64,000 bases of DNA, from contig NZ_PYGJ01000010.1 of assembly GCF_003014475.1 (NCBI RefSeq), forward strand, positions 1-64,000. Direction: 5' to 3'. Source of the stretch: Shimia abyssi (GTDB lineage Bacteria; Pseudomonadota; Alphaproteobacteria; Rhodobacterales; Rhodobacteraceae). Below are positions 9,106 through 29,660 of the stretch, in pieces; the first letter of the stretch is position 1; every line of letters begins with the position of its first letter. Below the pieces are notes generated by a model, which saw only the letters and a program-made list of their open reading frames with translations, searched no databases and was not told the origin of the DNA. The translations under genes and the position numbers were made by a program.

Positions 9106-9180
9106 ATTAGTATCCTGAGAATCGAGAGGCTGCAAGTCTCTTTCGATATCGCCGCATGCCCACGAAAGGTTTTGGCCACC

Positions 9181-11049: not shown

Positions 11050-12032
11050 TGAGCGCCCTACTCGAAGGCATTCGCAAGAACCGCTTTGCCGTGTTCGGGC
11101 GGGCGGGCATGGATATGTTTGCTGACCCGGTCGGCACCAAAAGCGAAAATGCTGAACAATTCCGCTCAGACCTTGGCGGGTCTTCCGCCAATATCTGCGC
11201 AGGCCTGTGCAAGCTGGGCAGCACCAGCGCGCTGGTGACGTCAGTCTCGGACGACGCCGTCGGGCGGTTCTGTATCAATCGGCTAAATCACTACGGTGTC
11301 GACACTCGCTATGTGCGCTCAATTGCTGGCGAATTCCGAACATCCCTTGCCGTTTACGAAAGCTGTATCGAAGATTTCCAGAATGTCATCTACCGGAATG
11401 GCGCCGCCGATTTCCAAGTGACCGACGCGGATGTCGACGCTGTTGATTACGCCAATTTCAGCGCTCTGATTTCCGCCGGAACCGTGTTTGCCGCCGAACC
11501 TTCGCGCGGCTCAACGTTTCGGGCCTTTGAAAACGCACGCAAGGCGGGCCTGCCGGTGATCTTTGACATCGACTATCGCCCATACTCGTGGCCGTCGCCC
11601 GAGGTCGCATCCGACGTACTTTCGCGCGCGGGCGATCAAAGCGACCTGATCGTTGGCAATGATGAAGAGTTCGGCTTTATGGCGGGCGGCATCGAAAAAG
11701 GCTTGGAGAAAGCGCGCGAACTGGCGTCAAAACCGGGCCGCATCGTGATCTACAAAATGGGTCACGAAGGGGCCGTTACCTTTGCCGACGGTAAAGAAAT
11801 TCGCACCGGAATCTACCCCGTGACTGCTGTAAAACCCAATGGTGCTGGCGACAGCTTCATGGCTGGCCTTTTGGCTTCACTGGCCAACGGACATGATCTG
11901 CGCGACGCCGTTTTACGCGGCTCGGCCTGCGCGTCGATTGTCGTGTCGCAACCCGGCTGTGCTCCGGCCATGCCCACCACCAATGAACTTGAGGCATTTC
12001 TCGCTTCTCACTCCGGCCCAAGCGACGCTTGA
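11049..12032 (+). CDS. iolC: 5-dehydro-2-deoxygluconokinase
   Basis: A PfkB-family sugar kinase of 327 residues. Substrate-side motifs DLGGSSANICAGLCKLG are near residue 40, and the catalytic PfkB signature KPNGAGDSFMAGLLASLANG is near residue 265. In inositol breakdown it phosphorylates 5-dehydro-2-deoxy-D-gluconate at C6. It lies directly after iolD with ATG overlapping the iolD stop by one base, so the two are translationally coupled. Unlike some proteobacterial IolC proteins it has no C-terminal DUF2090 aldolase-like extension; the aldolase step is supplied by the separate class II aldolase gene two positions downstream. Confidence 0.93.
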   Translation: MSALLEGIRKNRFAVFGRAGMDMFADPVGTKSENAEQFRSDLGGSSANICAGLCKLGSTSALVTSVSDDAVGRFCINRLNHYGVDTRYVRSIAGEFRTSLAVYESCIEDFQNVIYRNGAADFQVTDADVDAVDYANFSALISAGTVFAAEPSRGSTFRAFENARKAGLPVIFDIDYRPYSWPSPEVASDVLSRAGDQSDLIVGNDEEFGFMAGGIEKGLEKARELASKPGRIVIYKMGHEGAVTFADGKEIRTGIYPVTAVKPNGAGDSFMAGLLASLANGHDLRDAVLRGSACASIVVSQPGCAPAMPTTNELEAFLASHSGPSDA

Positions 12033-12053
12033 GCCGCCAGAAAGGACTGCACA

Positions 12054-12896
12054 ATGCATATTGCGCCTTACGATAACCAAAACCAGGCCATCGTGGATGC
12101 TGACCACGATCTGGTGCCGCTGACCTATTTCAACATCGTCAAACTCAAGCAAGGTGAGGTGTTCGAATACAGCGTGCCAGGCTATGAAACCTGTATTGTT
12201 CCAGCCACGGGCACCGTTGACGTCGATGTCGAAGGCGCAGTTTACACAGGAATTGGCAACCGCACCGTCGATGTCTGGGACGGCGACCCCGAAGGTGTCT
12301 ACGTGCCGGTCGGAGCCACCGTGCGCCTGACTTGCAAATCTGAGGCCACGGAAACCTTCATTGCCGGGGCGAAATATGACAAGGTGCTAGAGCCATTCGA
12401 CGTGCGCGCCGATGCGCTTGATCTTGTGCAATACGGATCAGATGACACCAAAACCCACCGCAAAATCAAACACATCCTTGGCGCAAAGCACCACGACAAA
12501 GTAGGCCGCCTTTTGGTCAGTGAGCTGTTCACAGTTGGCCAAGGGGGCTGGTCCGGATTTCCCAGCCACAAGCACGACACAGACCGCTTGCCCGAAGAAA
12601 CCCGCCACGACGAAACCTATAACTTCCGATTCCGCCCAAATTACGGTTCCGGCCTGCAAATGCTGCAACGCGAAGATAACAAGCCCGGCGATGCCTATCA
12701 CATCGTGGATGGCTCCACGATTTGCATCGACAAGGGATATCACCCCTGTGCGGTCCTGCCCGGCTATGAGATGTACTATTTCACCATTCTGGGCGGTTTG
12801 AGCCAACGCAGCCTGAAGCAATATTTCCAACCCACACATGCCGAACAATTGCACACAATTCCCGGCATCATGGACATGGTGGCAAAGTTCAAATGA
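12054..12896 (+). CDS. iolB: 5-deoxy-glucuronate isomerase
   Basis: A bicupin isomerase of 280 residues that converts 5-deoxy-glucuronate to 5-dehydro-2-deoxygluconate, the step between IolD and IolC. The metal-site stretch FPSHKHDTDRLPEETRHDE has the expected two histidines and glutamates; YHPCAVLPGYEMYYFTILGG and the C-terminal RSLKQYFQPTHAEQLH are also typical of IolB. It lies 21 bases after iolC with an AGAAAGGA ribosome binding site, and its stop overlaps the next start by 4 bases (ATGA). Confidence 0.94.
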   Translation: MHIAPYDNQNQAIVDADHDLVPLTYFNIVKLKQGEVFEYSVPGYETCIVPATGTVDVDVEGAVYTGIGNRTVDVWDGDPEGVYVPVGATVRLTCKSEATETFIAGAKYDKVLEPFDVRADALDLVQYGSDDTKTHRKIKHILGAKHHDKVGRLLVSELFTVGQGGWSGFPSHKHDTDRLPEETRHDETYNFRFRPNYGSGLQMLQREDNKPGDAYHIVDGSTICIDKGYHPCAVLPGYEMYYFTILGGLSQRSLKQYFQPTHAEQLHTIPGIMDMVAKFK

Positions 12897-13723
12897 GTTT
12901 GGTGACTTTGAAAGATGTCCTTCAACCCGCGTTGAAGGATGGTTACGCCGTGGCTGGTCTTGTGACACTTGGCTGGGAAGACATGCGTGCCTATGTAGCC
13001 GCCGCCGAGGCCGAAAATGTGCCCGTCATTCTACAGGCTGGTCCCTCGTGCCGTGCACATACACCGTTGTCTGTGTTGGGCAAGATGTTCACGCACCTTG
13101 CTGAAAACGCATCCGTCCCGGTCGTGGCCCATCTTGATCATGGCTACACGCCCGAAGAATGCCACGAAGCCATCGACAGCGGCTTTACCTCCGTTATGTT
13201 TGACGGCTCTCGCGAGGCGATTGACAAGAACATCGCCAACACAGCCGCCATCGTTGAAATGGCCCATACAGCGGGGGTATCTTGCGAGGGTGAGATTGGA
13301 TTTGTTGGCTATTCCGGCGGCGAGGGTTCCGCAGGAACCGACCCCGAAGAAGCCGCCCGTTTTGCCCGCGAAACCGGCGTCGACGCGATGGCCATTTCCG
13401 TAGGCAACGTCCATTTGCAGCAAAACAAAGAAGGCGGCCTGGACGAGGCGCGCATCCGTGCCATCGAAGCAATGACCGACATTCCGCTGGTCATCCACGG
13501 CGGCTCTGGCGTGCCGGTCGCTCAGCGCACCTCATTGGCGCAGCAGTCCAGTATCTGTAAATTCAACATCGGTACCGAACTGCGCATGGCCTTTGGTTCT
13601 GCGCTACGCACTTCGGTCAATGCCGATCCTGACCGGTTCGACCGCGTGCAAATCCTGAAAGACACCCATGACCCGTTGGTCGCCGCGACCCGCACGGTTC
13701 TGCGCGCCTTTCAAAAAGGCTAG
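12893..13723 (+). CDS. Class II aldolase, probable 6-phospho-5-dehydro-2-deoxy-D-gluconate aldolase (IolJ-like)
   Basis: A zinc-dependent class II fructose-bisphosphate-aldolase-type TIM barrel of 276 residues. The zinc and catalytic motif VVAHLDHGYTPEECHEAI is near residue 80, with CEGEIGFVGYSGGEG, AISVGNVHL and VIHGGSGV supplying the other metal and phosphate sites. As the last gene of iolD-C-B it most likely splits the IolC product to DHAP and malonate semialdehyde. No methylmalonate/malonate-semialdehyde dehydrogenase (IolA) is in the window; that step would lie elsewhere. A general fructose-bisphosphate aldolase role is the alternative, less likely given the operon. Confidence 0.85.
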   Translation: MSLVTLKDVLQPALKDGYAVAGLVTLGWEDMRAYVAAAEAENVPVILQAGPSCRAHTPLSVLGKMFTHLAENASVPVVAHLDHGYTPEECHEAIDSGFTSVMFDGSREAIDKNIANTAAIVEMAHTAGVSCEGEIGFVGYSGGEGSAGTDPEEAARFARETGVDAMAISVGNVHLQQNKEGGLDEARIRAIEAMTDIPLVIHGGSGVPVAQRTSLAQQSSICKFNIGTELRMAFGSALRTSVNADPDRFDRVQILKDTHDPLVAATRTVLRAFQKG

Positions 13724-13743
13724 GGTCAGGACCCTAAGAGTTC

Positions 13744-13776: not shown

Positions 13777-14331
13777 TTACTTGGCAACTTCTGTCATGAA
13801 ACGATCGCGGATCACCACAGGATCCATGGTAATCACCGGCATCTTGGCATTACCGCTCTCGCATTTGCAGACGATGATCGTCATTTGATCGCCATCCAAC
13901 GCCTCTTGCAGCACCCGTCCTGTGTCCTCCGCTGCGCACTCGACCACATTCTCGCACCCACACGCCTCGGCCACTTTGGCAAGCGATGTTTTCATGCCCG
14001 CATAAGTCGGTTGATCTCCGGTCGACCCGTATGAACCATTATCCACAATCATCAAAATGAAGTTATTTGCCACATTGTTCGCAATGGTCGGCAACGTGCC
14101 AAGGTTGGTCAACACAGACCCATCCCCGTCAATCGCGATCACTTTCTTGGGTTGTGCCAAGGCCAGCCCCAACCCGATTGATGAGGCCAGTCCCATTGTG
14201 CCCAACATGTAAAAGTTGGTTGGCTGATCGTCGATGGCGTGCAGCTCTTGGCTGGGAATGCCGATATTACAGACCACCAACTGATCCCGCAGGATCGGTG
14301 CGATTTCTTTAAGTATTTCAGAGCGGATCAT
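13777..14331 (-). CDS. comE: Sulfopyruvate decarboxylase beta subunit (ThDP-binding)
   Basis: The ThDP/Mg-binding half of a two-subunit 2-oxoacid decarboxylase, about 184 residues. The motif runs from AIDGDGSVLTNLGTL to LMIVDNGSYGSTGDQPTY at about residues 75-115. With the alpha subunit encoded 2 bases upstream it would convert 3-sulfopyruvate to sulfoacetaldehyde and CO2. Split subunits of this size match ComDE; phosphonopyruvate decarboxylase is usually one fused chain. The start is placed at ATG 14331 (MIRSEILKEI); the frame extends upstream into comD. It is the last gene of the nine-gene minus-strand operon and ends at a hairpin. Confidence 0.85.
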   Translation of the reverse strand: MIRSEILKEIAPILRDQLVVCNIGIPSQELHAIDDQPTNFYMLGTMGLASSIGLGLALAQPKKVIAIDGDGSVLTNLGTLPTIANNVANNFILMIVDNGSYGSTGDQPTYAGMKTSLAKVAEACGCENVVECAAEDTGRVLQEALDGDQMTIIVCKCESGNAKMPVITMDPVVIRDRFMTEVAK

Positions 14332-14333
14332 GA

Positions 14334-14837
14334 TCAGTACCCTCCCCAGAATGACGCATCCGTCAGGATTGCGACCGGTTTGTTGCACATGAACGTATAG
14401 TCGATGATCTTACCCAGCTCCTCGACATCGTCACGTTTATGGAAATGATAGGTCGGGATGTTCATCTGCGCCAAAAGCGCCTTGGTGTGCACCGCCATCT
14501 CCACCTGACACGCCACCGGTTCGCCCAGCTCTCCGCGATAGGAGATCAGCATCGGCAAAGGCATCCGGTAATACTGGATCAACGTCGCCAATGTGTTGAT
14601 TGTCACGCCCAACGCGGTGTTCTGCATGATGATCGCGGGCTTTTTGCCGCCCATAAAGGCACCGGCGCACAGGCCCATGCCCTCGTCTTCTTTGTTTGAT
14701 GGCACGTGATGAATATCGGGCGACTCTTCAAGAACTTCGATCACCCCGGCCAGCTGCTTGCACGGCACCGTGGTGATAAAGTTAACGCCCTTTTCGGTTA
14801 GGTCGGATACGATCCGCCTGTCTATGTCCTTGGCCAT
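14334..14837 (-). CDS. comD: Sulfopyruvate decarboxylase alpha subunit
   Basis: The pyrimidine-binding (PYR) half of the decarboxylase, 167 residues. It shows VNFITTVPCKQLAGVIEVL and HHVPSNKEDEGMGLCAGAFMGG, where the Glu of the NKEDEG stretch is the expected ThDP-activating residue, then IIMQNTALGVTINTLATLIQYY. It pairs with the beta subunit directly downstream. ATG 14837 is preferred over a GTG two codons earlier because AGGAG sits five bases upstream. The gene before it encodes a hydroxyacid dehydrogenase that would produce the sulfopyruvate substrate, which supports a sulfonate rather than phosphonate role. Confidence 0.85.
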   Translation of the reverse strand: MAKDIDRRIVSDLTEKGVNFITTVPCKQLAGVIEVLEESPDIHHVPSNKEDEGMGLCAGAFMGGKKPAIIMQNTALGVTINTLATLIQYYRMPLPMLISYRGELGEPVACQVEMAVHTKALLAQMNIPTYHFHKRDDVEELGKIIDYTFMCNKPVAILTDASFWGGY

Positions 14838-14839
14838 GT

Positions 14840-15763
14840 TCACTCCTGCGATAAAGTCTTGAGGGTCAGGTCTGCGATCATCTCGCTGACCCGAACGTTG
14901 CTGTCCTGCGTCACGCCCGCAATATGCGGGGTCAGGATCAGGTTGGGCAGTTCGGCGAATTTCGCCGCCGCCTTTGCTGTCAAAGGTTCGGTCTCAAACA
15001 CGTCCAGCGCAGCACCAGCAATGCCGCCCTGTCGCAGCGCATCGGCCAGCGCCGCTTCATCCACGACGCCCCCGCGCGCTGCATTGATCAACACCGCATC
15101 ATCACGCATCTGCCCCAGCGCTTCGGCGTTGATCAGATGGCGGGTGCCATCCGTCAACGGGACGTGCAGGCTGATCACATCCGCACATGCATACATATCT
15201 TCCAGCGACACATTCTTGGTCTTGGACCAAAGCGGGCTGTCTGATGGGACAAACGGATCATGTGCACAGGTCCGCATTCCCAGATTATGCGCCATATCCG
15301 CCGTTGCTTGTGCAATCTCGCCAAACCCGATCAACCCTAATGTGCGCCCGGCAACCTCTCGCCCGGAACATGCGGCGCGCGGCCAGGCGCCCGCCAGCAT
15401 CTGCGCCTTGGCCTGATAGGCATTGCGCAACAGGATTGCAGCGTTGGTCACAACGTATTCGGCCACCGAAAGCGTATTGGCGCCCACAGCTGGACACACG
15501 GCAACACCAGCCTCCTTGCAGGCTGCAAGGTCGATGTTATCAAGCCCAACACCAAGCCGGCCAACCATCTGCAAATCCGGCGCTGCGGCAAGCAGCGCCC
15601 GTGTCACCTGTGTTCTGTTGCGCACGATCAGCACCCGGACACCGGCCATCCTCGCCGGTATATCGCCTTGGGCATCGGCCAACTCCGGCGCGTATTGCGT
15701 TGGAAAGGCGTCCGCCATCCGCACGACCGACGCCTCGTCCATGAATTCTGTGACCAGTATCAA
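14840..15763 (-). CDS. D-isomer-specific 2-hydroxyacid dehydrogenase, probable sulfolactate dehydrogenase (SlcC-like)
   Basis: A phosphoglycerate-dehydrogenase-fold protein of about 307 residues. The NAD-binding motif GRTLGLIGFGEIAQATADMA is in the middle; the catalytic Arg is in NAARGGVVDE, and the catalytic His is in LILTPHIAGVTQD. Family members reduce or oxidise 2-hydroxy acids; SlcC of this family oxidises (S)-sulfolactate to sulfopyruvate. The genes on either side (aldehyde dehydrogenase upstream, ComDE downstream) make that reaction fit exactly. The start is put at TTG 15763, since it gives the family N-terminus (LILVTEF) and overlaps the preceding stop; GTG 15784 and ATG 15742 are alternatives. 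A 3-phosphoglycerate dehydrogenase role is possible but does not fit the operon. Confidence 0.75.
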   Translation of the reverse strand: MILVTEFMDEASVVRMADAFPTQYAPELADAQGDIPARMAGVRVLIVRNRTQVTRALLAAAPDLQMVGRLGVGLDNIDLAACKEAGVAVCPAVGANTLSVAEYVVTNAAILLRNAYQAKAQMLAGAWPRAACSGREVAGRTLGLIGFGEIAQATADMAHNLGMRTCAHDPFVPSDSPLWSKTKNVSLEDMYACADVISLHVPLTDGTRHLINAEALGQMRDDAVLINAARGGVVDEAALADALRQGGIAGAALDVFETEPLTAKAAAKFAELPNLILTPHIAGVTQDSNVRVSEMIADLTLKTLSQE

Positions 15764-17214
15764 CCGCCCAACTCCGCAAGGCACAGGTACTTGGTCTCAA
15801 GGTAGTCATCCAGCCCTTGGCTGCCGCCCTCCTTGCCCATACCGCTTTCCTTAAGGCCACCAAACGGCGCTTCTACGGTGGTGATAAGCCCCGAATTTAT
15901 ACCGATCAGCCCATAGTCCAGTTCTTCGTTCAGCCGGAACGCCCGCCCCAGATCGCGGGTATAAGCATAGGCGGCCAGCCCGAACTCTGTGTCATTTGCC
16001 GCCGCAATAGCCTCTTCTTCGGATTCGAACTTGAAGACAGCCGCGATGGGGCCAAAAATCTCGTCCTTGGCAAATTGCATGTCAGCAGTGGCGCCAGTGA
16101 TCACGGTTGGCTCAAAAAACGTTCCACCTAGCGCGTGACGATTGCCGCCCTGCACAACCTCGCCGCCTTTGGTCGTGGCGTCGGCAATCATTTCTTCAAC
16201 CTTCGCAACCGCGCCGTCATCAATCAGCGGGCCTTGCGCTACGCCATCCTGCGTTCCGTCCCCAACAACAAGTTTTGCCGTCGCCTCGCGCAGCTTCTCG
16301 ACAAAGGTGTCGTGAATGCCTGCCTGCACGTAAAACCGGTTGGTACAGACACAGGTCTGCCCCATGTTACGGAATTTGGCGATCATGCCGCCTTCAACGG
16401 CGGCGTCCACATCGGCATCGTCAAACACAAGGAACGGTGCGTTGCCGCCCAGCTCCATCGACACTTTCTTGACCGTATCTGCCGACTGGCGGATCAGTGT
16501 TTTGCCCACCTCGGTAGAGCCGGTGAAGGTCACCTTGCGCACCTCTGGGCTGGCCATGATCGCTCCGCCAATGGCGCGCGCGCTGCCGGTCACGATATTG
16601 ATCACACCAGCAGGAAACCCGACATCCTCGGCCAGCTTGCCCCACACCAGACCGGAATACGGTGTTGATGTCGCGGGTTTTGCCACGACAGTGCAGCCCG
16701 CCGCCAAGGCTGGCCCCAGCTTACGCGCCAGCATGGATGACGGGAAATTCCACGGCGTAATCGCCCCAACCACACCCACCGGGTGGCGCGTCGCCATCAA
16801 CCGCCGGCCATTGATCGGCGCGGGGATGATCTCGCCTTTGGCGCGGCGGATTTCTTCGGCAAACCAGCGGATATAGGCCGCGCCAATTGCAATCTCGCCA
16901 CGCGCTTCAAACAGCGGCTTGCCCTGTTCTGCGGTCAGCAGCTGCGCCAGCGCCTCTTGGTTGTCCATCAGCGCATCGTGCAGCTTGTGCATCAGCCCGA
17001 CACGCTCCAGCAAACCGGTACGCGCCCATGGCTTAAACGCCGCACTTGCGGCGGCAATCGCGCGCTCGGTTTCATCCGCGCCACTGTTGGGAACACTGCC
17101 CAGTGCCGCGCCAGTGGCAGGATTGGTCACTGCAATCTCCGCCCCTCCATCGGCGCCAACCCATTCACCGCCAATCAGGTTGGCCTGCATCATCAAACCG
17201 TTAAAATCGCTCAT
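15760..17214 (-). CDS. NAD(P)-dependent aldehyde dehydrogenase (GabD-like), probable sulfolactaldehyde dehydrogenase
   Basis: A 484-residue aldehyde dehydrogenase of the succinate-semialdehyde type. Catalytic residues are visible: Asn156 in TPWNFP, Lys179, Glu254 in MELGGNAP and Cys288 in GQTCVCTNR; the last two motifs nearly match GabD. In sulfo-Entner-Doudoroff bacteria a GabD-like enzyme oxidises 3-sulfolactaldehyde to sulfolactate, and here it sits between a mutarotase and a sulfolactate-dehydrogenase candidate downstream of the sulfofructose-phosphate aldolase. It overlaps both neighbours by about 4 bases. Succinate-semialdehyde or malonate-semialdehyde oxidation are alternatives; the operon favours sulfolactaldehyde. 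Confidence 0.8.
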   Translation of the reverse strand: MSDFNGLMMQANLIGGEWVGADGGAEIAVTNPATGAALGSVPNSGADETERAIAAASAAFKPWARTGLLERVGLMHKLHDALMDNQEALAQLLTAEQGKPLFEARGEIAIGAAYIRWFAEEIRRAKGEIIPAPINGRRLMATRHPVGVVGAITPWNFPSSMLARKLGPALAAGCTVVAKPATSTPYSGLVWGKLAEDVGFPAGVINIVTGSARAIGGAIMASPEVRKVTFTGSTEVGKTLIRQSADTVKKVSMELGGNAPFLVFDDADVDAAVEGGMIAKFRNMGQTCVCTNRFYVQAGIHDTFVEKLREATAKLVVGDGTQDGVAQGPLIDDGAVAKVEEMIADATTKGGEVVQGGNRHALGGTFFEPTVITGATADMQFAKDEIFGPIAAVFKFESEEEAIAAANDTEFGLAAYAYTRDLGRAFRLNEELDYGLIGINSGLITTVEAPFGGLKESGMGKEGGSQGLDDYLETKYLCLAELGG

Positions 17215-18206
17215 GTGTTTTCCTTCAAAAATACGAATTGCGTGTGTTGGCGATAGCGCTCATCAGGTCGCAATATCGCCTGTGGAAAATGGGCGTGATG
17301 GTTGGCGTCTGGCCAAACCTGCGGTTCCATCGCAAGCCCCGCATACGCCCCCATAGGCTCTCCACTCAGCCCTCCCAGGTCAATATTGATATTCGCACCG
17401 TCATATATCTGAAGCCCCGGTTCGGTTGTGCGGCACTCCATAGACACCCCCGAACGTTGGCTCTTGAGCCATGCGACCGGGCGTATCGCGCCGCGTTTCT
17501 GTGACAGACAGAAATTGTGATCCACAGGATGGGCCTGTTTCAACCGCGCAAACGCGCGAAAATCAAAGCTGGTTCCATCAACATCGCGGACTTCTCCGGT
17601 CGGGATCAACTCACCGTCCACTGGCAAATATTGCCCCGTATCAACTTTGAGCAAATGCTCAGAAATAGTCCGGCCATCATCCAGCACAAAATAACTATGA
17701 TGCGCCAAATTACACAGCGTTGGCGCATCCGTCTCGGCTTCCATCACAAAATCCAGCACACCGCCATCAAGAACCCGGATCGTCACCCGTGCGGTTAACG
17801 CGCCCGGAAACCCCATATGCCCGTCCGGTAACTCATGTGTCAGCACGACATGCGACGCGCTGTGTTCCTGCACCTGCCACAGCCGTTTGCCCATGCTGTC
17901 CAGCCCACCGTGCAAACAGTGCTTTCCCAGAAAATTGCAGGCCAGCTGATGCGTGGCGCCGTCAATCTCAAGATGCCCGTCTGCAATCCGATTGGCGTAA
18001 CGCCCGGCAATCGCACCAAAAAACGGCGAACGGTCAAGGTAAGGTGCAAACTCGGGAAACCCAAGCACCAGCGGCGCGTCATGCCCCTCCAGTCTCAGGT
18101 CCTGCAACACCGCCCCATAGGTCAGCACATGCGCCGTCAGGCCTCCTCCCTCCAGCCGCAGCCGATGCACCGTTTCGCCTGTTGGCATGGTCCCAAATGC
18201 GTGCAT
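17211..18206 (-). CDS. Aldose 1-epimerase family protein (candidate sulfoquinovose mutarotase)
   Basis: A GalM-type beta-sandwich of 331 residues. Recognisable parts are LTYGAVLQDLRLEG at the start, FGAIAGRYANRIADG near residue 65, the catalytic-histidine region NLAHHSYFVLDDGR near residue 165, and the late Glu region MEPQVWPDANHH. Aldose mutarotases interconvert anomers of a free sugar; YihR does this for sulfoquinovose in the E. coli pathway. Its place directly after the Gfo/Idh gene and before the dehydrogenase gene suggests it serves the sugar released by the preceding enzyme. Its sulfonate preference cannot be read from the sequence by eye. Confidence 0.8.
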   Translation of the reverse strand: MHAFGTMPTGETVHRLRLEGGGLTAHVLTYGAVLQDLRLEGHDAPLVLGFPEFAPYLDRSPFFGAIAGRYANRIADGHLEIDGATHQLACNFLGKHCLHGGLDSMGKRLWQVQEHSASHVVLTHELPDGHMGFPGALTARVTIRVLDGGVLDFVMEAETDAPTLCNLAHHSYFVLDDGRTISEHLLKVDTGQYLPVDGELIPTGEVRDVDGTSFDFRAFARLKQAHPVDHNFCLSQKRGAIRPVAWLKSQRSGVSMECRTTEPGLQIYDGANINIDLGGLSGEPMGAYAGLAMEPQVWPDANHHAHFPQAILRPDERYRQHTQFVFLKENT

Positions 18207-18208
18207 CT

Positions 18209-19297
18209 TTACACCTTCACGTCAATGGCCTGCCCGCAACGCGCGCTTTCTTCGGCAGCCTCGCCCACGATCACTGACCACAACCCGTCCAACAGCGTCA
18301 CTTCGGGTGTGCCGTGACCTTGGTTCACCAGATCGCGGAATTTCGCGTGTTGGAAATAGGTCGATCCGTGGTGATCGCCCGCCGACAGGATGGAATGATC
18401 GACCTCGATCTCTTCGCGGATCACGTCCTTGCTGGCGCGGTGTGAAATCTCGATTTCCGAGGCACGCTCGGCCCCGTCCACTGTGAATCGCGCTGGCCCC
18501 GGCACCTTGGCGTCAACCCGCGCCGCCGCCCCTGTAACCGACACCACCTCTTGCCAATAAGACCCTTCGGCAAACATGCACAGATCAAGCATTCCGCGTG
18601 TCCCGTTCTCAAAATCGACAACCACATAGGCGTTGTCGATAATGTCCGGCACGCGCCCCTCGTAGCGCTCGTCCAGATGATTCACATCCACACCCGCGCT
18701 GGCAAACACCCGCACCGGATTGCTCTCGAGCGTCAGGCGCATCAAGTCCCAGAAATGGCAGCATTTTTCAACCAAAGTGCCCCCGGTACGTTTTGAAAAC
18801 CGGTTCCAGTCGCCAACCTTTTCCAGAAATGGAAAGCGGTGTTCCCGGATCGACATCATGCGCGGCGCGCCCACTGTGCCGCTCTGCACCTCCTGCAAAA
18901 GCCGTTGTACGGGTGGCATGTAACGGTACTCCATCGCCACCCATACGGGTGCGGCACGGCCATCGGCCTTGGCCAAAACTTCGCGGCAATCCGCAGACGT
19001 GGTGCACAATGGTTTTTCGCACAGGATGGGCAGGTTAGTTTCCAACAGATCCAGCATAATGGAGTGGTGCGTGTCATTTGGCGCGCCAATTAACACCGCA
19101 TCACACACGCCCGCCGACAGCATATCCTTGTAATCGGCGAACCCCGTTGCCCCGCCCGCAGTTTCAATCGACGCGGCGCGCATCCCCTCATTCGGGTCGG
19201 CCACGGCCGTGACTTCGCACCCCTCCAGCAGGTTGAGGTTACGAATGTGTTCTTGCCCCATCATCCCGGAACCGATGATGCCATATCGCACTGTCAT
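18209..19297 (-). CDS. Gfo/Idh/MocA-fold protein of the sulfosugar operon (candidate NAD-dependent sulfoquinovosidase)
   Basis: A 362-residue Rossmann-fold protein: VRYGIIGSGMMGQEHIRN at the start, ILCEKPLCTTSADCREVL at about residue 95, and AMEYRYMPPVQRLLQEV after it. Ordinary family members are sugar dehydrogenases, but some (GH109, GH188) use bound NAD to cleave glycosides; I recall that GH188 members are sulfoquinovosidases in sulfo-EMP2 clusters. The operon has no GH31-type sulfoquinovosidase, so this protein could supply that entry step. ATG 19297 is preferred; a TTG at 19306 would overlap the isomerase stop. A plain sugar dehydrogenase remains the main alternative. Confidence 0.75.
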   Translation of the reverse strand: MTVRYGIIGSGMMGQEHIRNLNLLEGCEVTAVADPNEGMRAASIETAGGATGFADYKDMLSAGVCDAVLIGAPNDTHHSIMLDLLETNLPILCEKPLCTTSADCREVLAKADGRAAPVWVAMEYRYMPPVQRLLQEVQSGTVGAPRMMSIREHRFPFLEKVGDWNRFSKRTGGTLVEKCCHFWDLMRLTLESNPVRVFASAGVDVNHLDERYEGRVPDIIDNAYVVVDFENGTRGMLDLCMFAEGSYWQEVVSVTGAAARVDAKVPGPARFTVDGAERASEIEISHRASKDVIREEIEVDHSILSAGDHHGSTYFQHAKFRDLVNQGHGTPEVTLLDGLWSVIVGEAAEESARCGQAIDVKV

Positions 19298-19302
19298 TCC
19301 GC

Positions 19303-20685
19303 TCAAAGCTCCAAAACCGGCAGGTTCATGGCACCCGCCACCCCGCGCAACGTGTCAATATGGTCGCCATAGGCCAGCGCCATGTGATGCTCCAAACCGC
19401 ACTCGATCATCCGGTCCAGCACTTCGCCAGTGGGTCGCGTGAATTTCAAAACACCCGAGGTGCCGGTGAATGCCATTGGCCGCGCCTGCATCTCTCCTTT
19501 GGCCAGCACCATCGATGGTACGCCATCCGCCTGGCTGATCCGCATCATGGTCACGGTGCCCGGTTTCAGAGGAAACTGAAACAGCAATGGCTGTTTGCGA
19601 TTGGTGTGAACCGTCGCTTCAGCCTCAAACGCCGGGTCACGCATCGACATGGGCGCCTGTCCGCAATGCCAAACGACCCCTGTGTCGTCCTCTGCATCCA
19701 TGTCCACGATATCCGTCAAAAACACCGGGGCATCAGCGGCCTGCATCAGGATCAACTGGGTCAGCGCCCCGTAAACGTCAGCTTCGCAGGCACAGGGCAC
19801 GCGCGCCTCGCCCAACATCCCCGCCGGTCCGCACACCGCGCCGCCATATTCGGTAAACGTCTCAGGCCAGCACCGAATGGCAAAAGCATCATATGCCCCT
19901 TCAGCGCGCAGCGTGTCCAACCCCGCCTTAAGCCGCAAAGACCGATCCAGCTGCGCCTGATCCACGTCTTCCAACCCGCTCAGCACCTGATCCGCCTCAT
20001 TTCTCAACGCCCGCGCCCGCTCATCAGATGCGTTGCGCGCCTTATCAAACAGGTCGTCCAGCTCAATCGCATCAACCCCGACCTGCGCCAGATCCCGGAT
20101 CGCATTTGCATCATAGGCGCATGTGTCAAAGCCAACCGGATGGGCACCAATGCGCGCAATCCGGTTGCCTTTGACGGCCTCTGCTACCGCGCGCCCTGCG
20201 TCGGTCGCCTCCGGGCGCGCTGCTGCCACCGCGTGGCCTGCGCCACGCGCACCTGTCAACAAATCCTGCACATCGCGAGAAACATCCGCCTCTGGATCGG
20301 CATAGAGCCAGCCAAAGTCGCGCCCGTTGCGCCGCAAGGCATGGCTGGCGAGGTTCAGCCCGCAAAAGGCGTTCAGCCGCAGCCGCCCGCCGAGCCTCGG
20401 TTCGGGAACGGCCCAAATATGCAGCGCCTGTTCAAACGCATTGGCCACCGAAACCACAAAAGACGCATCCGTAAACGTCACCTGCAACACCAGAACCGCG
20501 TCGACATGTCCCTGCTGCAACGTGTCAATCGCCGCTCCTGCTGCTTCGTCATCCATCAACAACACGCGCGGCCCGCACAATTCGTGCCCGCTCGCGTCCA
20601 ACACCGCGAGCATCGCCGCCAACTTGCTTTCAGCATAGGCCACATCAAATGTCGGCCGCGCCAATGGCAGTATTCCAAGTTTCAT
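19303..20685 (-). CDS. L-fucose/L-arabinose isomerase-fold sugar isomerase (candidate sulfoquinovose isomerase)
   Basis: A 460-residue protein with the look of the L-fucose/arabinose isomerase superfamily: an N-terminal Rossmann-like half (VLVLQVTFTDASFVVSVANA, then WAVPEPRLGGRLRLNAFCGL), a central ARIGAHPVGFDTCAYDANAI, and a C-terminal half with FAIRCWPETF, CACEADVYGALTQLI and VWHCGQAPMSM. These match the general pattern in which acidic and His residues bind a divalent metal. In this operon it would convert sulfoquinovose to sulfofructose. E. coli uses an unrelated AGE-family isomerase (YihS) that is absent here. It begins three bases upstream of the aldolase stop boundary with GGAG eight bases before the ATG. 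The assignment to sulfoquinovose is by context. Confidence 0.7.
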   Translation of the reverse strand: MKLGILPLARPTFDVAYAESKLAAMLAVLDASGHELCGPRVLLMDDEAAGAAIDTLQQGHVDAVLVLQVTFTDASFVVSVANAFEQALHIWAVPEPRLGGRLRLNAFCGLNLASHALRRNGRDFGWLYADPEADVSRDVQDLLTGARGAGHAVAAARPEATDAGRAVAEAVKGNRIARIGAHPVGFDTCAYDANAIRDLAQVGVDAIELDDLFDKARNASDERARALRNEADQVLSGLEDVDQAQLDRSLRLKAGLDTLRAEGAYDAFAIRCWPETFTEYGGAVCGPAGMLGEARVPCACEADVYGALTQLILMQAADAPVFLTDIVDMDAEDDTGVVWHCGQAPMSMRDPAFEAEATVHTNRKQPLLFQFPLKPGTVTMMRISQADGVPSMVLAKGEMQARPMAFTGTSGVLKFTRPTGEVLDRMIECGLEHHMALAYGDHIDTLRGVAGAMNLPVLEL

Positions 20686-21720
20686 TCAGTGGTCTCCAAA
20701 ATCGCCATATTCGTGGCGAAAACTCGCATCCCCGGGCGCAAACCGCGCACCACCGGCACCATAACACGCATGTTCCGCCCAATTGGCCGCGCTTGCATCC
20801 GCCAACGCCGAGATATCGGCCATGTACTCCGCCGACGGCCCCTCAAGTTCACGCCGAATGGCATCCCAATCCGGGTAGGCGCCAAACGCATCCAGCCAAA
20901 TCGCCCGCCCCGCCAAAAAGCCTGACGCACCGGCGGCAAAGGCATGTTCCAGAACTTTGCGGAACTCTGGCTTGCCTGCACCTGCGCTCAACATCACCCA
21001 AGGCCGCCCGGCAAGCCGCCCCATCTCGTCAAACACCTGCTGAACCTCTGCCGAACCATCCGCATCTGCGGCATTCACCGGGCTTTCCAGCTTAAAGACG
21101 TCAACACCGTATTCCGGCTTAGCAAACTCCTCGACCGAGGCCAGAACATCGTCCGCCTTCTTGCCCTTCATCTCCACATATTCCTTGGTCTGGTGCGCAT
21201 CCGCCGCCAATGGATAGACCAGCAATTCAAACAGGAATGGAACGTCATAGCGGGCGCATTCTTCGCCAATCCTCTTGACATAATCCTTCTGTGCCTGATT
21301 GACCGCGTCCCCCGCATCCGGACGATACCATGCCAGCACCTTGACCGCGTCACCGCCCATGCGCTTGATCTTGGCAACGGACCACTCGTCGATATCAGAC
21401 GACAATCGCCCCTCTGGCGTTTCGCTGAACAGGCTGTCTTCCAGCGTCACAATCAGCCCCTTTGTCGGGGACAATACGTCAACGCTATGGGGTATCGCAT
21501 AATGCGGGTCCAAGAGCATCGCCGTGCTTTGCGCCTGCAATGTCTCGATCAACAGTCCCTTGAACCGTGCAACCTCCTCCCAAGGGGCCTGCTCCACGCC
21601 CAGATGCTTGGCGATCGGGCCCTTGATCGGCGGGCGTTGATCTACGGCTGTCATTTTAAACAGACCGTTCTCGTCGGCCATACGGCGCAACCCCCAAAGC
21701 TTACCGGGTGTCAGTGTCAT
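20686..21720 (-). CDS. Class I aldolase of the LacD/YihT family, probable 6-deoxy-6-sulfofructose-1-phosphate aldolase
   Basis: A 344-residue Schiff-base aldolase. The start shows FKMTAVDQRPP; the lysines expected in the active site are Lys127 (DAVKVLAWYRPD) and Lys210 (DVFKLESP); the C-terminal motif GASGFLAGRAIW contains Arg272. As I recall the sequences, YihT has GASGFLAGRAVW here whereas tagatose-bisphosphate aldolase LacD has a different GVLCGRATW form, so this protein is closer to YihT. The reaction would yield DHAP and 3-sulfolactaldehyde. The gene overlaps the kinase by 20 bases and has AAGGAGAG before its ATG. Tagatose-1,6-bisphosphate aldolase is the alternative. Confidence 0.82.
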   Translation of the reverse strand: MTLTPGKLWGLRRMADENGLFKMTAVDQRPPIKGPIAKHLGVEQAPWEEVARFKGLLIETLQAQSTAMLLDPHYAIPHSVDVLSPTKGLIVTLEDSLFSETPEGRLSSDIDEWSVAKIKRMGGDAVKVLAWYRPDAGDAVNQAQKDYVKRIGEECARYDVPFLFELLVYPLAADAHQTKEYVEMKGKKADDVLASVEEFAKPEYGVDVFKLESPVNAADADGSAEVQQVFDEMGRLAGRPWVMLSAGAGKPEFRKVLEHAFAAGASGFLAGRAIWLDAFGAYPDWDAIRRELEGPSAEYMADISALADASAANWAEHACYGAGGARFAPGDASFRHEYGDFGDH

Positions 21721-22603
21721 GGGTTCTCTCCTTCAGGAATTCGTCTGTTTCTTCGCGCGTTGGCGCACCTTCCCGACCACCGGGTTTCAGGCATTTCAAC
21801 GCCGCCGCTGCATTCGCAAATTCAATGGCGCGCCGCTCGGTCAGCCCTTCGGCCAACCCCAGCGCCAGCGCCCCGTGCCAGATGTCTCCGGCACCTAATG
21901 TGTCAATTGGTTCGACCTGAAATGCCGGTACATGCACGATGTCACCACCATCCGCGTACCAAACGCCATGTTCACCGTCGGTCACACAGACCCAGCACCC
22001 ATAGCGTTCGCAGATCTGCAACAGGGCCGCCTCGGGCGTCATACCCGGCACCAGATCCTTCAGGCCCTGCATGGATAACGCAGCATGGCTGGCATGGTTC
22101 AGCAATTCGGGATCAATCGGCGCTTCACCGTCCAGCACACCCGGCACCCCGCACTCACGTGCAAACTGAAGCGCATCCCGCGCCGCCGAAACGCGCCGGG
22201 TATCCGTTAAAACCGCGCCCAGCCCTTCAATCCCAGCGAACCAATCCGTGGCCAGCACAAGCCCCTGACCACGGAAGTTCACAATCTGCCGCTCGCCGGC
22301 CGCATCCACATAAACCGATGAATACGAACTGCGCGCACCGGGTGTGCGGGTCACGTTGGACACGTCAACTCCGTCCTTGCTCAACCCGTCCAGCACCATG
22401 TCGCCAATCAAGTCCTGCCCCAATCGTGCGCCAAGGATCGCATGACCGCCCAGCCGTGCCACGGCCACCGCCGCGTTTGCCGCGCACCCGCCGCCAACGA
22501 TCGCCGCGTCCTCGGTCCCGAATTTTTCGGCCCGCTCAGGCAATTCCGGTAAATAGAACAGAAAATCGACCACTGCAGCGCCGACACACAAAACTTTGCT
22601 CAT
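21701..22603 (-). CDS. PfkB-family kinase, probable 6-deoxy-6-sulfofructose kinase (YihV-like)
   Basis: A 300-residue ribokinase-fold enzyme with GGGCAANAAVAVARLGG, the catalytic IDTLGAGDIWHGALALGLAEG and a C-terminal AALKCLKPGGREGAPT. Aligned by eye to E. coli YihV, it keeps the three residues reported to hold the sulfonate: Lys27 (ERAEKFG), Asn109 (GERQIVNF) and Arg136 (LTDTRR, Arg138 in YihV). This is the best sequence-level evidence that the operon handles a sulfonated sugar. It would use ATP to make sulfofructose-1-phosphate for the aldolase downstream. ATG 22603 overlaps the stop of the cytochrome gene upstream by one base, so it may be co-transcribed with that gene. Confidence 0.85.
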   Translation of the reverse strand: MSKVLCVGAAVVDFLFYLPELPERAEKFGTEDAAIVGGGCAANAAVAVARLGGHAILGARLGQDLIGDMVLDGLSKDGVDVSNVTRTPGARSSYSSVYVDAAGERQIVNFRGQGLVLATDWFAGIEGLGAVLTDTRRVSAARDALQFARECGVPGVLDGEAPIDPELLNHASHAALSMQGLKDLVPGMTPEAALLQICERYGCWVCVTDGEHGVWYADGGDIVHVPAFQVEPIDTLGAGDIWHGALALGLAEGLTERRAIEFANAAAALKCLKPGGREGAPTREETDEFLKERTHDTDTR

Positions 22604-23907
22604 CAGGGCACCTCAAGTCCGCTTGGCACCTGATCAGGCCGCCCCAACCGCCCCTTGACCGACTCTGTCCCGGTTAGCGCATGAAGAAAGGCCACGATCT
22701 GGGCCACTTCCGCATCACTCAACGAAACCGGTTCAATATCGGATACCGCACCCAGCCGCGCGCGCTCGCGCTTGTCCTGCATCGAAAGCAAATCTGCTGC
22801 CGACAACCATGGAACCTCTGGCAGAACCGCCATGCTCGCATCCCAAGCCTCAAACGCAGCTCGTGCATCGAGGTGGTGGCGCACGATCCCTTCCAACGTC
22901 GCATAAGCTCCGTTGTGCCCATACGGCCCAGTCAGCGCGACGTTACGCAATTGCGGCGTCCTGAACCGATACGCATCCTCTAAACGGTCCGATGCCCCCA
23001 TGCGCCCCACATCGCGCACAATCGGATCCCACTGGCGTGTTTTGCCGGGTCCAAAATGCGGCAACATCAGCGCATGAAAACTTTGATCTGACAACAACTT
23101 ACCGGAATGGCAAGCGCTGCACTGCGCCTTGCCAAAAAACAGGTCCATGCCCGCCTTTTGCGCCCCGTCCAGCGCTGCTTTATCACCGTTCAGATAGGCG
23201 TCAAACGGGCTGTCGAAACTCTGAAATTCACTGCCCTGAAACGCTGCCAAAGCATTGGCGACATGGGTTATCGAAATATCCAGCGGCTTGTTCACATCCT
23301 CAAACGCTGCCACAAACATGTCCGCATATTCCGGAATCACCCGCACCCGCTTGGCGATAATTGGCCAAACCGCATCAATCCGATCATAGGCCGCGCCAGC
23401 GACCTGATTTTCCTTTGGATCACCCGCCATTTCAAACTGCGACGTCATCGGAAACACCGCCTGTACGGCCAGAATGCTGTCCAACCCTTCGGGCAGCCAT
23501 TCCTGTGCTGGCGTGTCAAACCCATTGTCATAAATCGCAGACTTCGAAACGCGCCCGTCGTGAAACAGAATATCAATGTCACGCGCACCCAAATTCCACA
23601 GCGCGGGTGCATTGCGCGGAATGCGCTTGATAATACGCGTATTCCCTTGACCCGGCGTCCGCTCCGGGCCCAGCCCCATGCCACCTTCGCCAATGCCCAG
23701 CGACAAACCGTCCCCGCTGCCATGCTCGGGGTGATGACAGGTCGCGCAGGCGATGTTGCGATTACCCGACAGGATTGGGTCAAAAAACAACAGCTGCCCG
23801 ATCTTGGCCTTGGCTGGATCAAACTCCAGAAAATCCGACACTTGCAAAGGTGCCGGAAGCGGGTTCCCATACGCGGGCGCGCACGCAAACGCGGCGCAAA
23901 ATATCAA
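22603..23907 (-). CDS. Di-heme cytochrome c peroxidase / MauG-family protein
   Basis: Two haem c sites are visible, IACATCHHPEHG and AQCSACHSGKLL, separated by about 225 residues, with RTPQLRNVALTGPYGHNGAY typical of bacterial di-heme peroxidases and MauG-like enzymes. A short hydrophobic leader (LIFCAAFACAPAYG) before the mature part predicts export to the periplasm. The start is uncertain: the frame runs open to 24348, antisense to a real gene, and no ATG or GTG lies near the leader; TTG 23907 is the nearest usable codon. The stop overlaps the sulfofructose kinase start by one base. Its link to the sulfosugar operon is unexplained. Confidence 0.75.
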   Translation of the reverse strand: MIFCAAFACAPAYGNPLPAPLQVSDFLEFDPAKAKIGQLLFFDPILSGNRNIACATCHHPEHGSGDGLSLGIGEGGMGLGPERTPGQGNTRIIKRIPRNAPALWNLGARDIDILFHDGRVSKSAIYDNGFDTPAQEWLPEGLDSILAVQAVFPMTSQFEMAGDPKENQVAGAAYDRIDAVWPIIAKRVRVIPEYADMFVAAFEDVNKPLDISITHVANALAAFQGSEFQSFDSPFDAYLNGDKAALDGAQKAGMDLFFGKAQCSACHSGKLLSDQSFHALMLPHFGPGKTRQWDPIVRDVGRMGASDRLEDAYRFRTPQLRNVALTGPYGHNGAYATLEGIVRHHLDARAAFEAWDASMAVLPEVPWLSAADLLSMQDKRERARLGAVSDIEPVSLSDAEVAQIVAFLHALTGTESVKGRLGRPDQVPSGLEVP

Positions 23908-23922
23908 ACCAACGGAGCCAAA

Positions 23923-24393
23923 ATGAAGCGACTTGCCCTTGTTCTGATGCTGACTGCCCAGACCGCCTTTGCCGAAATCGAAACGGCGCGCGATCTTATG
24001 GATGCCCAGGATTACGAGGCCGCGATGCAGGAACTCCTGCCAGCGGCGCGGTCCGGCAATGCCGAGGCCGAAGAACTGATTGGCGTGATGTACGCGCTGG
24101 GGCTGGGTGTCCCGCGCGACGATATCCGCGCATTTGAGTGGTACTTGCGCTCCTCTCTCAAGGGGCACGCTGGCGCTCAATCTGGTATTGGATGGTATTA
24201 CGAGGTCGGCCGCGGAATGCCCGCACCGGATCTGGTCAGAGCCTACATGTGGTACACGCTCTCCGCGATCGGAGGCGATCCGGATGCGGCCATTTCCCTT
24301 GAGGAAGTGGTGAAAAAGATGACCAAGGAACAAATCGAAAAAGCCCATATTCTGGTGGACGACTATCGGGTCTGGCTTTACCCGTTTCGCTAA
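23923..24393 (+). CDS. Secreted Sel1-repeat protein
   Basis: A small protein of 156 residues with a signal peptide (MKRLALVLMLTAQTAFA) and Sel1-like repeats: AEELIGVMYALGLGVPRDDI, then WYLRSSLKGHAGAQSGIGWYY and AYMWYTLSAIGGDPDAA. Sel1 repeats form alpha-solenoids that mediate protein contacts, so a periplasmic scaffold role is likely. The ATG at 23923 has GGAG six bases upstream; the frame is open further left, but that part is antisense to the cytochrome gene. It is divergent from the cytochrome gene, with about 15 bases between the proposed starts. A clear terminator follows. Confidence 0.8.
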   Translation: MKRLALVLMLTAQTAFAEIETARDLMDAQDYEAAMQELLPAARSGNAEAEELIGVMYALGLGVPRDDIRAFEWYLRSSLKGHAGAQSGIGWYYEVGRGMPAPDLVRAYMWYTLSAIGGDPDAAISLEEVVKKMTKEQIEKAHILVDDYRVWLYPFR

Positions 24394-24401
24394 GCGGAGG
24401 C

Positions 24402-24433
24402 GGAGGCGCCCACACAGGCGCCTCCCTTTTCTT
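24402..24433 (+). terminator. Rho-independent terminator after the Sel1 gene
   Basis: A 9-bp perfect stem GGAGGCGCC / GGCGCCTCC with a 6-base loop (CACACA), followed by CTTTTCTT on the plus strand. It separates the Sel1 gene from the convergent TRAP binding-protein gene. Confidence 0.85.
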
Positions 24434-28520: not shown

Positions 28521-28542
28521 ATCTTTCGCTTTCACCAGTTAA

Positions 28543-29647: not shown

Positions 29648-29660
29648 AACAAGCCGCCTT

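Follow-up and report, generated by a model that had tools for sequence, protein, structure and literature searches.

The DNA examined here (hereafter the window) is a stretch of 64,000 nucleotides from Shimia abyssi, probably a marine bacterium (NCBI RefSeq GCF_003014475.1, contig NZ_PYGJ01000010.1, positions 1–64,000, forward strand), and our subject is a run of nine consecutive minus-strand open reading frames (ORFs) that occupies 13777–22603 and that we propose to be an operon for the breakdown of sulfoquinovose. In transcription order, the families represented are a PfkB kinase, a DeoC/LacD aldolase, a protein with a fucose-isomerase C-terminal domain, a Gfo/Idh/MocA protein, an aldose epimerase, an aldehyde dehydrogenase of the succinate-semialdehyde dehydrogenase (SSADH) group, a 2-hydroxyacid dehydrogenase of the phosphoglycerate dehydrogenase (PGDH) group, and the two halves of a thiamine pyrophosphate-dependent decarboxylase. 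The eight junctions from kinase to ComE measure −20, 0, −4, +2, −4, −25, −4, and −55 bases. An earlier, sequence-only reading of this DNA had described just such a run, its members overlapping or no more than 5 bases apart, and both that layout and the order and classes of the genes are borne out by the spacings and by Pfam and NCBIfam families, the function of the Gfo/Idh gene having since been refined. Taken together, the genes very probably encode an extended, hybrid form of the sulfoglycolytic Embden–Meyerhof–Parnas (sulfo-EMP) pathway that carries a ComDE/Xsc tail. The nine genes are as follows.

21701–22603, minus strand: with strong likelihood a sulfofructose kinase, YihV-like, PfkB family (PF00294; structure and residue alignment)
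20686–21720, minus strand: probable class I sulfofructose-1-phosphate aldolase, LacD-type PRK12858 (PF01791; NF009498, 332.6 bits)
19303–20685, minus strand: probable sulfoquinovose–sulfofructose isomerase, arabinose/fucose isomerase fold (NF048012; predicted fold)
18209–19306, minus strand: GH188 NAD+-dependent sulfoquinovosidase, SqgA (structure matches and contact residues)
17211–18206, minus strand: aldose-1-epimerase family, probable sulfoquinovose mutarotase (PF01263, 242 bits)
15760–17214, minus strand: probable S-sulfolactaldehyde dehydrogenase, GabD/SlaB type (PF00171, 545 bits)
14840–15784, minus strand: probable S-sulfolactate dehydrogenase, SlcC-like, PGDH family (PF02826, 189 bits)
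14334–14843, minus strand: sulfopyruvate decarboxylase alpha subunit ComD (TIGR03845, 160.2 bits, cut-off 147.95)
13777–14388, minus strand: sulfopyruvate decarboxylase beta subunit ComE (TIGR03846, 240.9 bits, cut-off 221.5)

Proposed route from sulfoquinovosides to sulfolactaldehyde

The strongest single pointer to sulfoquinovose as the substrate is the Gfo/Idh protein, which its sequence identifies as an NAD+-dependent sulfoquinovosidase of family GH188. Compared with solved chains, it scores 397–405 bits to 8qc2, 8qc3, and 8zn9, and the next structure reaches 79 bits, a gap that rules out a generic oxidoreductase. The entries 8QC2, 8QC3, 8QC5, 8QC6, and 8QC8 are structures of SqgA (PMC10755693). 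All eight contact residues reported for ArSqgA (K107, Y136, R166, L170, K172, E189, H193, and H321; PMC10755693) are matched in the window protein, as K98, Y127, R157, L161, K163, E180, H184, and H312, the positions having been counted by hand on a pairwise alignment with one constant offset of 13. These positions are invariant in 66/66 aligned sulfoquinovosidases; residue counts in this study come from length- and identity-filtered sequences, namely 66 sulfoquinovosidases, 79 isomerases, 68 kinases, and 68 aldolases, the window's own included. Glu163 of the published ArSqgA falls one place off the alignment offset and corresponds to E155 of the window protein, which is likewise conserved 66/66. 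With a threshold of E 1e-15, the genome yields one GH188 match. The sequence-only reading had already placed this protein in a sulfosugar pathway, and that membership stands, but its role as a sulfoquinovosidase had gone unrecognized; with such an enzyme at its disposal, the operon could begin from glycosides rather than from the free sugar only.

For the kinase, the nearest structure of named function is the sulfofructose kinase of E. coli (7ag6, 177 bits, vs. 120 for the best ribokinase), and 2rbc, a “sugar kinase” whose function is unnamed, scores 180 bits. Its residues K27, N109, and R136 align with K27, N109, and R138 of YihV, its presumed sulfonate contacts. Among the aligned kinases, the K27 and R138 positions are conserved in 68/68 and N109 in 58/68, and IolC, encoded in the same window, carries Q, I, and P at the three places. 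We therefore regard a sulfofructose kinase as strongly likely, in line with the YihV-like kinase named at first sight.

The isomerase can be assigned with less likelihood than the kinase, as a probable sulfoquinovose–sulfofructose isomerase. Its sole NCBIfam match is NF048012, the sulfoquinovose isomerase SftI, at 250.8 bits and below the cut-off of 700, and its fucose-isomerase C-terminal domain scores 27.5 bits, slightly below the Pfam cut-off of 29.3. Since a sequence search of solved structures at E up to 1 gave no match, the structure was predicted with AlphaFold2 from 28 sequences (pLDDT 92.1, pTM 0.91) and compared by fold, which returned arabinose isomerase (E 1.6e-21) and fucose isomerase (E 5.3e-18); the invariant residues E275, E301, D303, H340, H433, and H434 are candidate metal ligands. 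An arabinose/fucose isomerase family has also been reported for SqvD (PMC9594981). Thus the fucose-isomerase fold claimed from the bare sequence is upheld by the model, and the one family match points to sulfoquinovose, albeit from under its cut-off.

The adjoining aldolase, which probably acts on sulfofructose-1-phosphate, a substrate assigned from context, scores 316 bits to 8tnf (named by domain alone), about 146 to LacD, and 66 to YihT. It shares with YihT 16 conserved polar positions in the 68 aldolases, including those of K193 and R253, and its K210 aligns with YihT K193, presumably the Schiff-base lysine. “YihT-like”, as the enzyme had been called, therefore holds for these polar positions, but the relationship is distant and the subfamily is the LacD type. 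By overall similarity the aldolase does lean toward the tagatose enzymes, an outcome that the earlier reading had named as counting against itself, yet at 144.6 bits it lies far below the cut-off of 432 of the LacD equivalog model. The mutarotase, as claimed, belongs to the aldose-epimerase family.

Proposed route from sulfolactaldehyde to sulfite

The GabD-like enzyme is probably an S-sulfolactaldehyde dehydrogenase. Its R164, R282, and C288 align with R171, R289, and C295 of 8c54, whose residue numbering fits RlGabD, and the R171/R289 pair of RlGabD has been proposed to bind the sulfonate (PMC10599462). The PGDH-fold enzyme that follows is probably an SlcC-like S-sulfolactate dehydrogenase: the family (PF02826) is as first described, and sulfolactate as its substrate is taken from context. 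ComD and ComE both exceed their curated cut-offs, as the earlier naming of the pair would predict, and ComD is matched nowhere else in the genome. The true start of ComE is probably an internal ATG near 14331, because the TIGR03846 match begins at residue 22 of the ORF.

Sulfoacetaldehyde is probably not the end point of the pathway. An xsc gene, which the sequence-only reading had said would strengthen its case, is found in the same genome outside the window (C9:62821–64584) and exceeds the cut-offs of both models (NF005713, 1030.6 bits, cut-off 620; TIGR03457, 931.6 bits, cut-off 676.4). It adjoins pta (TIGR00651, 333.2 bits, cut-off 311.2), and with both genes present sulfoacetaldehyde could proceed to sulfite and acetyl-CoA; the operon thus reaches sulfoacetaldehyde as first proposed, but the genome need not stop there. 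Besides pta, the neighbors of xsc are a MocR-type regulator and a class-III aminotransferase, surroundings that resemble a taurine locus, and Xsc is probably shared with taurine use.

Another contig carries, at C12:34889–40467 (locus L095), HpsN/O/P-like, suyA-, suyB-, ComC-like, and TRAP-like genes, the suyA-, suyB-, and ComC-like ones lying beside genes of the HisD, SDR, and zinc-alcohol-dehydrogenase families. An hpsNOP–suyAB type of dihydroxypropanesulfonate cluster has been described (PMC11382572), and this locus, which is distinct from the sulfoquinovose operon, is probably such a cluster. The organism thus seems to process the two enantiomers of sulfolactate by different routes, the R form derived from dihydroxypropanesulfonate and the S form from sulfoquinovose. 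The family scan of the operon genes, to which this search was confined, found no sulfoquinovose monooxygenase among them.

The proposed pathway can now be stated in full. Sulfoquinovosides would be imported, perhaps via the neighboring TRAP (tripartite ATP-independent periplasmic) transporter, and hydrolyzed by the GH188 enzyme. The mutarotase and the fucose-isomerase-fold isomerase would convert sulfoquinovose to sulfofructose, from which the YihV-like kinase and the LacD-type class I aldolase would produce dihydroxyacetone phosphate (DHAP) and S-sulfolactaldehyde. The GabD-like dehydrogenase would oxidize the latter to S-sulfolactate and the PGDH-fold dehydrogenase would carry this on to sulfopyruvate, whose decarboxylation by ComDE would yield sulfoacetaldehyde; Xsc and Pta, encoded elsewhere, would finally release sulfite and acetyl-CoA. 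As decarboxylation would occur at the achiral sulfopyruvate, no ComC would be needed to make R-sulfolactate. The identities of the sulfoquinovosidase, ComDE, Xsc, and Pta genes are established at the level of sequence, whereas induction of the operon and flux through the pathway are inferred. The series from sulfoquinovose through sulfolactaldehyde, sulfolactate, and sulfopyruvate to sulfoacetaldehyde within one operon, which had been proposed from the DNA alone, is supported in outline by these identities and by the conservation described below.

Conservation, alternative tails, and rival explanations

We compared 80 loci, mostly from Rhodobacterales and Hyphomicrobiales, for which the isomerase served as the only query; they are the top 80 among 200 confirmed relatives. 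Because codon-usage ORF scoring still misses some genes, presence was taken from tblastn with bit-score thresholds of our own choosing, and contig ends truncate some of the loci. On this basis, the kinase is found in 72 loci, the aldolase in 70, the sulfoquinovosidase in 68, the PGDH-fold gene in 52, and the mutarotase in 41, along with TRAP dctP (59), dctM (57), a MauG-like peroxidase (50), and a DeoR regulator (39). Conservation on this scale shows that the gene set is more than a chance assembly. Silicimonas and Boseongicola loci (L013, L014, L018, L019, L026, L031, and L033) retain the kinase, isomerase, aldehyde dehydrogenase, and PGDH-fold genes, with no aldolase or sulfoquinovosidase match within the stretches compared.

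Several observations pull the other way for individual steps. The isomerase score lies far under the cut-off of its only family model, the aldolase is nearer to LacD than to YihT by overall similarity, and the PGDH-fold enzyme matches no family model that names a substrate. The aldehyde dehydrogenase, present in just 33/80 loci, scores higher to the SSADH 3jz4 (596 bits) than to 8c54 (545 bits), and 3jz4 has arginines at both RlGabD places, so that the arginine pair does not separate the two functions; for these reasons its substrate is assigned from context, and of the original claim the SSADH/sulfolactaldehyde dehydrogenase group stands, its specificity for sulfolactaldehyde being contextual.

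The loci differ in what follows the shared genes. ComD/E are present in 14 of the 80 and SuyA- or SuyB-like genes in 13; none has both and 53 have neither in view. The SuyA/B-like proteins match PF04295/PF20629 and, weakly, SAF, and are members of the galactarate/altronate dehydratase family, to which SuyAB has been assigned (PMC9594981). A ComC-like gene, whose best model is the L-sulfolactate dehydrogenase NF040650 (182 bits, cut-off 500), accompanies 10/13 Suy loci and 0/14 ComDE loci; the Suy loci with no ComC match (L054, L082, and L088) appear to end before its expected place. A PGDH-fold homologue also lies between the SuyB- and ComC-like genes in 10 loci. This mutual exclusion fits the stereochemistry of sulfolactate: sulfolactaldehyde dehydrogenase yields S-sulfolactate whereas HpsN yields the R form (PMC11382572), and SuyAB is an R-sulfolactate sulfolyase (PMC9594981). 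Since sulfoglycolysis gives the S form and SuyAB takes the R form, a SuyAB tail would need SlcC together with ComC, and a ComDE tail would not.

This picture of exchangeable tails has to be set against evidence less kind to it. The names SuyA/B and ComC depend on family and on the company of the PGDH-fold gene, and the exclusion is partly confounded by kinship, as 12/13 Suy loci sit together in a single region of the cluster tree. Kinship does not account for everything, since on that tree (75 rows with at least three of four genes, 8 “short” rows being omitted from the change count) the Suy character needs 5 changes and ComDE 9. Nor is ComDE an obligatory part, because the 53 loci showing neither tail, some of them cut by contig ends, include L009 and L010, to which the window cluster is sister and whose clusters stop at the PGDH-fold gene with room beyond. 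Xsc was considered as a marker of ComDE genomes and set aside: it is present in 13/14 ComDE and 10/13 Suy genomes, and so does not discriminate between them.

How the tail came to be attached can be approached from the ComDE genes themselves. A survey of 295 genomes of the window's family, its own included, drawn evenly from a larger group, found the isomerase in 25 and ComD in 68. The two co-occur in 13/25 isomerase genomes, compared with ComD in 55/270 isomerase-free genomes (Fisher p 0.0009, uncorrected for kinship), and lie at most 5 kb apart on one contig in 8/25. A ComDE tree of 45 rows was built from 18 cluster-linked and 27 unlinked pairs, with 31 chosen regions from the family survey; L122 was dropped as identical to L021, L055 (23% filled) and L115 (long branch) were included, and L036 was counted as linked with its ComDE about 8 kb away on the opposite strand. 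A single clade of cluster-linked ComDE is rejected (p-AU, from the approximately unbiased test, 1.6e-29). Fourteen linked rows and 4 unlinked ones form one clade, and the window's ComDE groups with 23 unlinked rows plus L015, L036, and L081. The linked/unlinked label changes 7 times on the tree, 3 of the changes being forced by well-supported branches. The simplest reading is that ComDE was recruited to the clusters more than once, although one early linkage followed by later separations could also give the non-monophyly. For L009, the corresponding genome (G220, recognized by the matching place of its isomerase) contains an unlinked ComDE that groups as the window's does, and the simplest history for the window lineage is that it gained a ComDE of this unlinked type at the tail of a sulfoquinovose cluster already in place. 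We think it likely on balance that the operon and its genomic partners provide a single-cell route from sulfoquinovose to DHAP, acetyl-CoA, CO2, and sulfite, in which the mismatch between S- and R-sulfolactate is solved without a racemase, and that in alphaproteobacteria this route was assembled on more than one occasion, through the attachment of ComDE to clusters that in relatives carry SuyAB–ComC or stop at the PGDH-fold dehydrogenase.

Among competing explanations, the one that fares best accepts the upper half as sulfoglycolysis and makes ComDE a side branch, S-sulfolactate being mainly exported, or else racemised by the PGDH-fold enzyme and ComC and then cut by SuyAB encoded elsewhere. 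Racemisation keeps some standing because suyA/B- and comC-like genes do exist elsewhere in the genome: at the C12 locus, a suyB-like gene with 89% identity to its Hoeflea counterpart lies next to suyA- and ComC-like genes, and 37 of the 75 clusters on the tree lack both modules although there is space for a tail. We nevertheless consider this explanation improbable, for comDE is single-copy in the genome and overlaps its operon neighbor, a ComC-like gene occurs in none of the 14 ComDE loci, and the C12 ComC-like protein is about 50% identical to the Suy-cluster one, in surroundings that look like dihydroxypropanesulfonate use.

Alternatively, the substrate might be another sulfohexose such as sulfofucose (6-sulfo-D-galactose), degraded via sulfotagatose by a tagatose-type aldolase indifferent to carbon 4. 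The aldolase is indeed closer to tagatose-bisphosphate aldolases than to YihT, the isomerase has the fold of arabinose/fucose isomerases, and alphaproteobacterial sulfofucose degraders exist (PMC12421959). Such a substrate is very unlikely all the same, as E180 (ArSqgA E189), which contacts O4, is invariant in the 66 GH188 sulfoquinovosidases, the sole NCBIfam match of the isomerase is a sulfoquinovose isomerase, and the known sulfofucose route is an Entner–Doudoroff pathway with other families (PMC12421959). Last, an unsulfonated sugar-acid or inositol-type operon, with enzymes merely resembling sulfonate enzymes, would suit the adjoining myo-inositol genes (iolD, iolC, and iolB-like) and the broad families of the aldolase, kinase, aldehyde dehydrogenase, and PGDH-fold enzyme, but can be dismissed as extremely improbable given GH188, ComDE, and the YihV-type positions in the operon, the opposite strand of the iol genes, and three iol-side ORFs (276, 280, and 328 aa) that group with none of the ORFs called in the 80 loci.

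Genomic surroundings and known systems

The following features flank the nine genes.

13720–13737, minus strand: terminator-like hairpin 3′ of comE (consensus scan)
22603–23907, minus strand: MauG-like di-haem cytochrome c peroxidase, likely operon gene 1 (PF03150, 116.4 bits)
24448–25506, minus strand: TRAP dctP (PF03480)
25546–27042, minus strand: TRAP dctM (PF06808)
27042–27623, minus strand: TRAP dctQ (PF04290)
27750–28535, minus strand: DeoR-family regulator (PF00455)

The operon probably starts one gene earlier than the kinase, at the peroxidase gene, which overlaps the kinase gene by 1 base; we know of no role for MauG-like peroxidases in sulfonate metabolism. The mechanical peroxidase ORF extends to 24348, where it overlaps a plus-strand Sel1-repeat gene, and its start is therefore probably near 23907, at a TTG, divergent from the Sel1 gene. 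The latter (23923–24393, plus strand) encodes a small protein with an apparent signal peptide and separates the TRAP genes from the operon; several relatives have a similar Sel1 gene in the same place (cluster c13; L068:6319–6786). A further terminator-like hairpin stands at 24402–24425, between the Sel1 gene and the TRAP genes; both hairpins are known from the consensus alone, in a scan that found 30 sites in the region vs. 15.6 in shuffles. The TRAP transporter is a candidate importer of sulfoquinovose or its glycosides. Upstream of the DeoR gene, a SIS-domain gene (best NCBIfam match glucosamine-6-phosphate deaminase NagB-II, below cut-off) and a GntR/UTRA regulator occupy 28619–30533. Directly past comE, and convergent with the operon, a myo-inositol set at 9172–13723 on the plus strand comprises iolD and iolC, which exceed their cut-offs, an iolB-like gene below its cut-off, and a class II aldolase. 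Farther away, 56614–60882 (plus strand) encodes a protein of 1422 residues, a single chain that combines an alpha/beta hydrolase domain with GMC oxidoreductase domains.

Among described systems, the sulfo-EMP pathway of the E. coli yih cluster and of Arthrobacter sp. AK01 has the intermediates that we propose for the window operon, a YihV-type kinase, and an aldolase of the class I superfamily, and Arthrobacter sp. AK01 further shares with the window operon a GH188 SqgA and, probably, a GabD-type sulfolactaldehyde dehydrogenase. The window operon departs from it in having a fucose-isomerase-fold enzyme in place of YihS and a LacD-type PRK12858 aldolase, in running past sulfolactate to sulfoacetaldehyde, and in its neighboring TRAP genes, where the Arthrobacter clusters have ATP-binding cassette (ABC) transporters; with an arabinose/fucose isomerase fold rather than a YihS-type isomerase, it is not a canonical sulfo-EMP operon. 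The sulfo-EMP2 pathway of Bacillus urumqiensis (SqvD/SqiK/SqiA) uses an isomerase of the FucI family, to which the window enzyme probably also belongs, but SqiK is PfkA-type and SqiA class II, whereas the window kinase is PfkB-type and its aldolase class I; membership in sulfo-EMP2 is set aside, the families being PF00294 and PF01791 instead of PF00365 and PF01116. Hybrids of these two enzyme sets are already known from the hybrid sulfo-EMP pathway of Vibrio. In the Roseobacter clade, the sulfoquinovose monooxygenase (sulfo-SMO) pathway offers related bacteria, a GH188 sulfoquinovosidase, and sulfite as the product, as proposed for the window, yet its monooxygenase cuts the C–S bond of the intact sugar, unlike the route envisaged here.

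Full breakdown of sulfoquinovose, a sulfur sugar abundant in plants and algae, is usually described as divided among different bacteria. If the present reading is true, some Roseobacter-type bacteria could alone return sulfoquinovose sulfur to sulfite by sulfoglycolysis, unlike the group's known monooxygenase route, and surveys keyed to the classical enzymes (YihS, YihT, SqiA, and SmoC) might overlook such bacteria. The exchange of ComDE for SuyAB–ComC also opens the role of sulfolactate chirality to direct test.

Roseovarius nubinhibens is said to have a bifurcated route for degrading dihydroxypropanesulfonate and sulfolactate. For the lower half, SlcD–ComDE–Xsc in Jannaschia and Ruegeria runs through the same series from sulfolactate to sulfopyruvate, sulfoacetaldehyde, and then sulfite and acetyl phosphate, but starts from dihydroxypropanesulfonate or sulfolactate and, as described there, is not tied to sulfoglycolysis (PMC11382572). 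The tandem sulfofucolytic–sulfolactate sulfolyase pathway of Paracoccus wurundjeri combines, as the window genome would, sulfohexose catabolism and mineralisation in one alphaproteobacterium, a co-occurrence of both halves that its describers term unusual, with an Entner–Doudoroff upper half and an SlcC–ComC–SuyAB lower half unlike those of the window (PMC12421959). Closest in plan are the SuyAB-extended clusters: in sulfo-TAL (transaldolase) clusters of Thermotogae and Chloroflexi, a single cluster takes sulfoquinovose past the C3 sulfonate, as the window operon would (PMC9594981), and the actinobacterial GH188 “Y160” cluster, put forward as a candidate new pathway, comprises a fucose isomerase, sulfofructose kinase, sulfofructose-1-phosphate aldolase, sulfolactaldehyde dehydrogenase, PGDH, and SuyAB (PMC11465081), a list nearly equal to the window's up to the last module. 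SuyAB-extended clusters differ in their ABC transporters and in C–S cleavage on R-sulfolactate, where the window operon would use decarboxylation by ComDE followed by Xsc, encoded elsewhere in the genome.

The sequence-only reading had supposed the exact gene set undescribed, and SuyAB-extended clusters, one of them nearly equal in gene content up to the last module, are in print (PMC9594981, PMC11465081), so that the supposition survives in part, for the ComDE version: open-access text, to which the search extended while most subscription papers and all figures fell outside it, yielded no ComDE-tailed sulfoglycolysis operon. A legend in a gut study names ComDE in connection with dihydroxypropanesulfonate degradation, and the clusters of Jannaschia and a Paracoccaceae bacterium in Fig. 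5c of PMC10755693 may include a similar operon. As we read the comparison, what appears new is the ComDE/Xsc tail on a hybrid sulfo-EMP pathway, which takes its place beside the extended forms of sulfoglycolysis already known.

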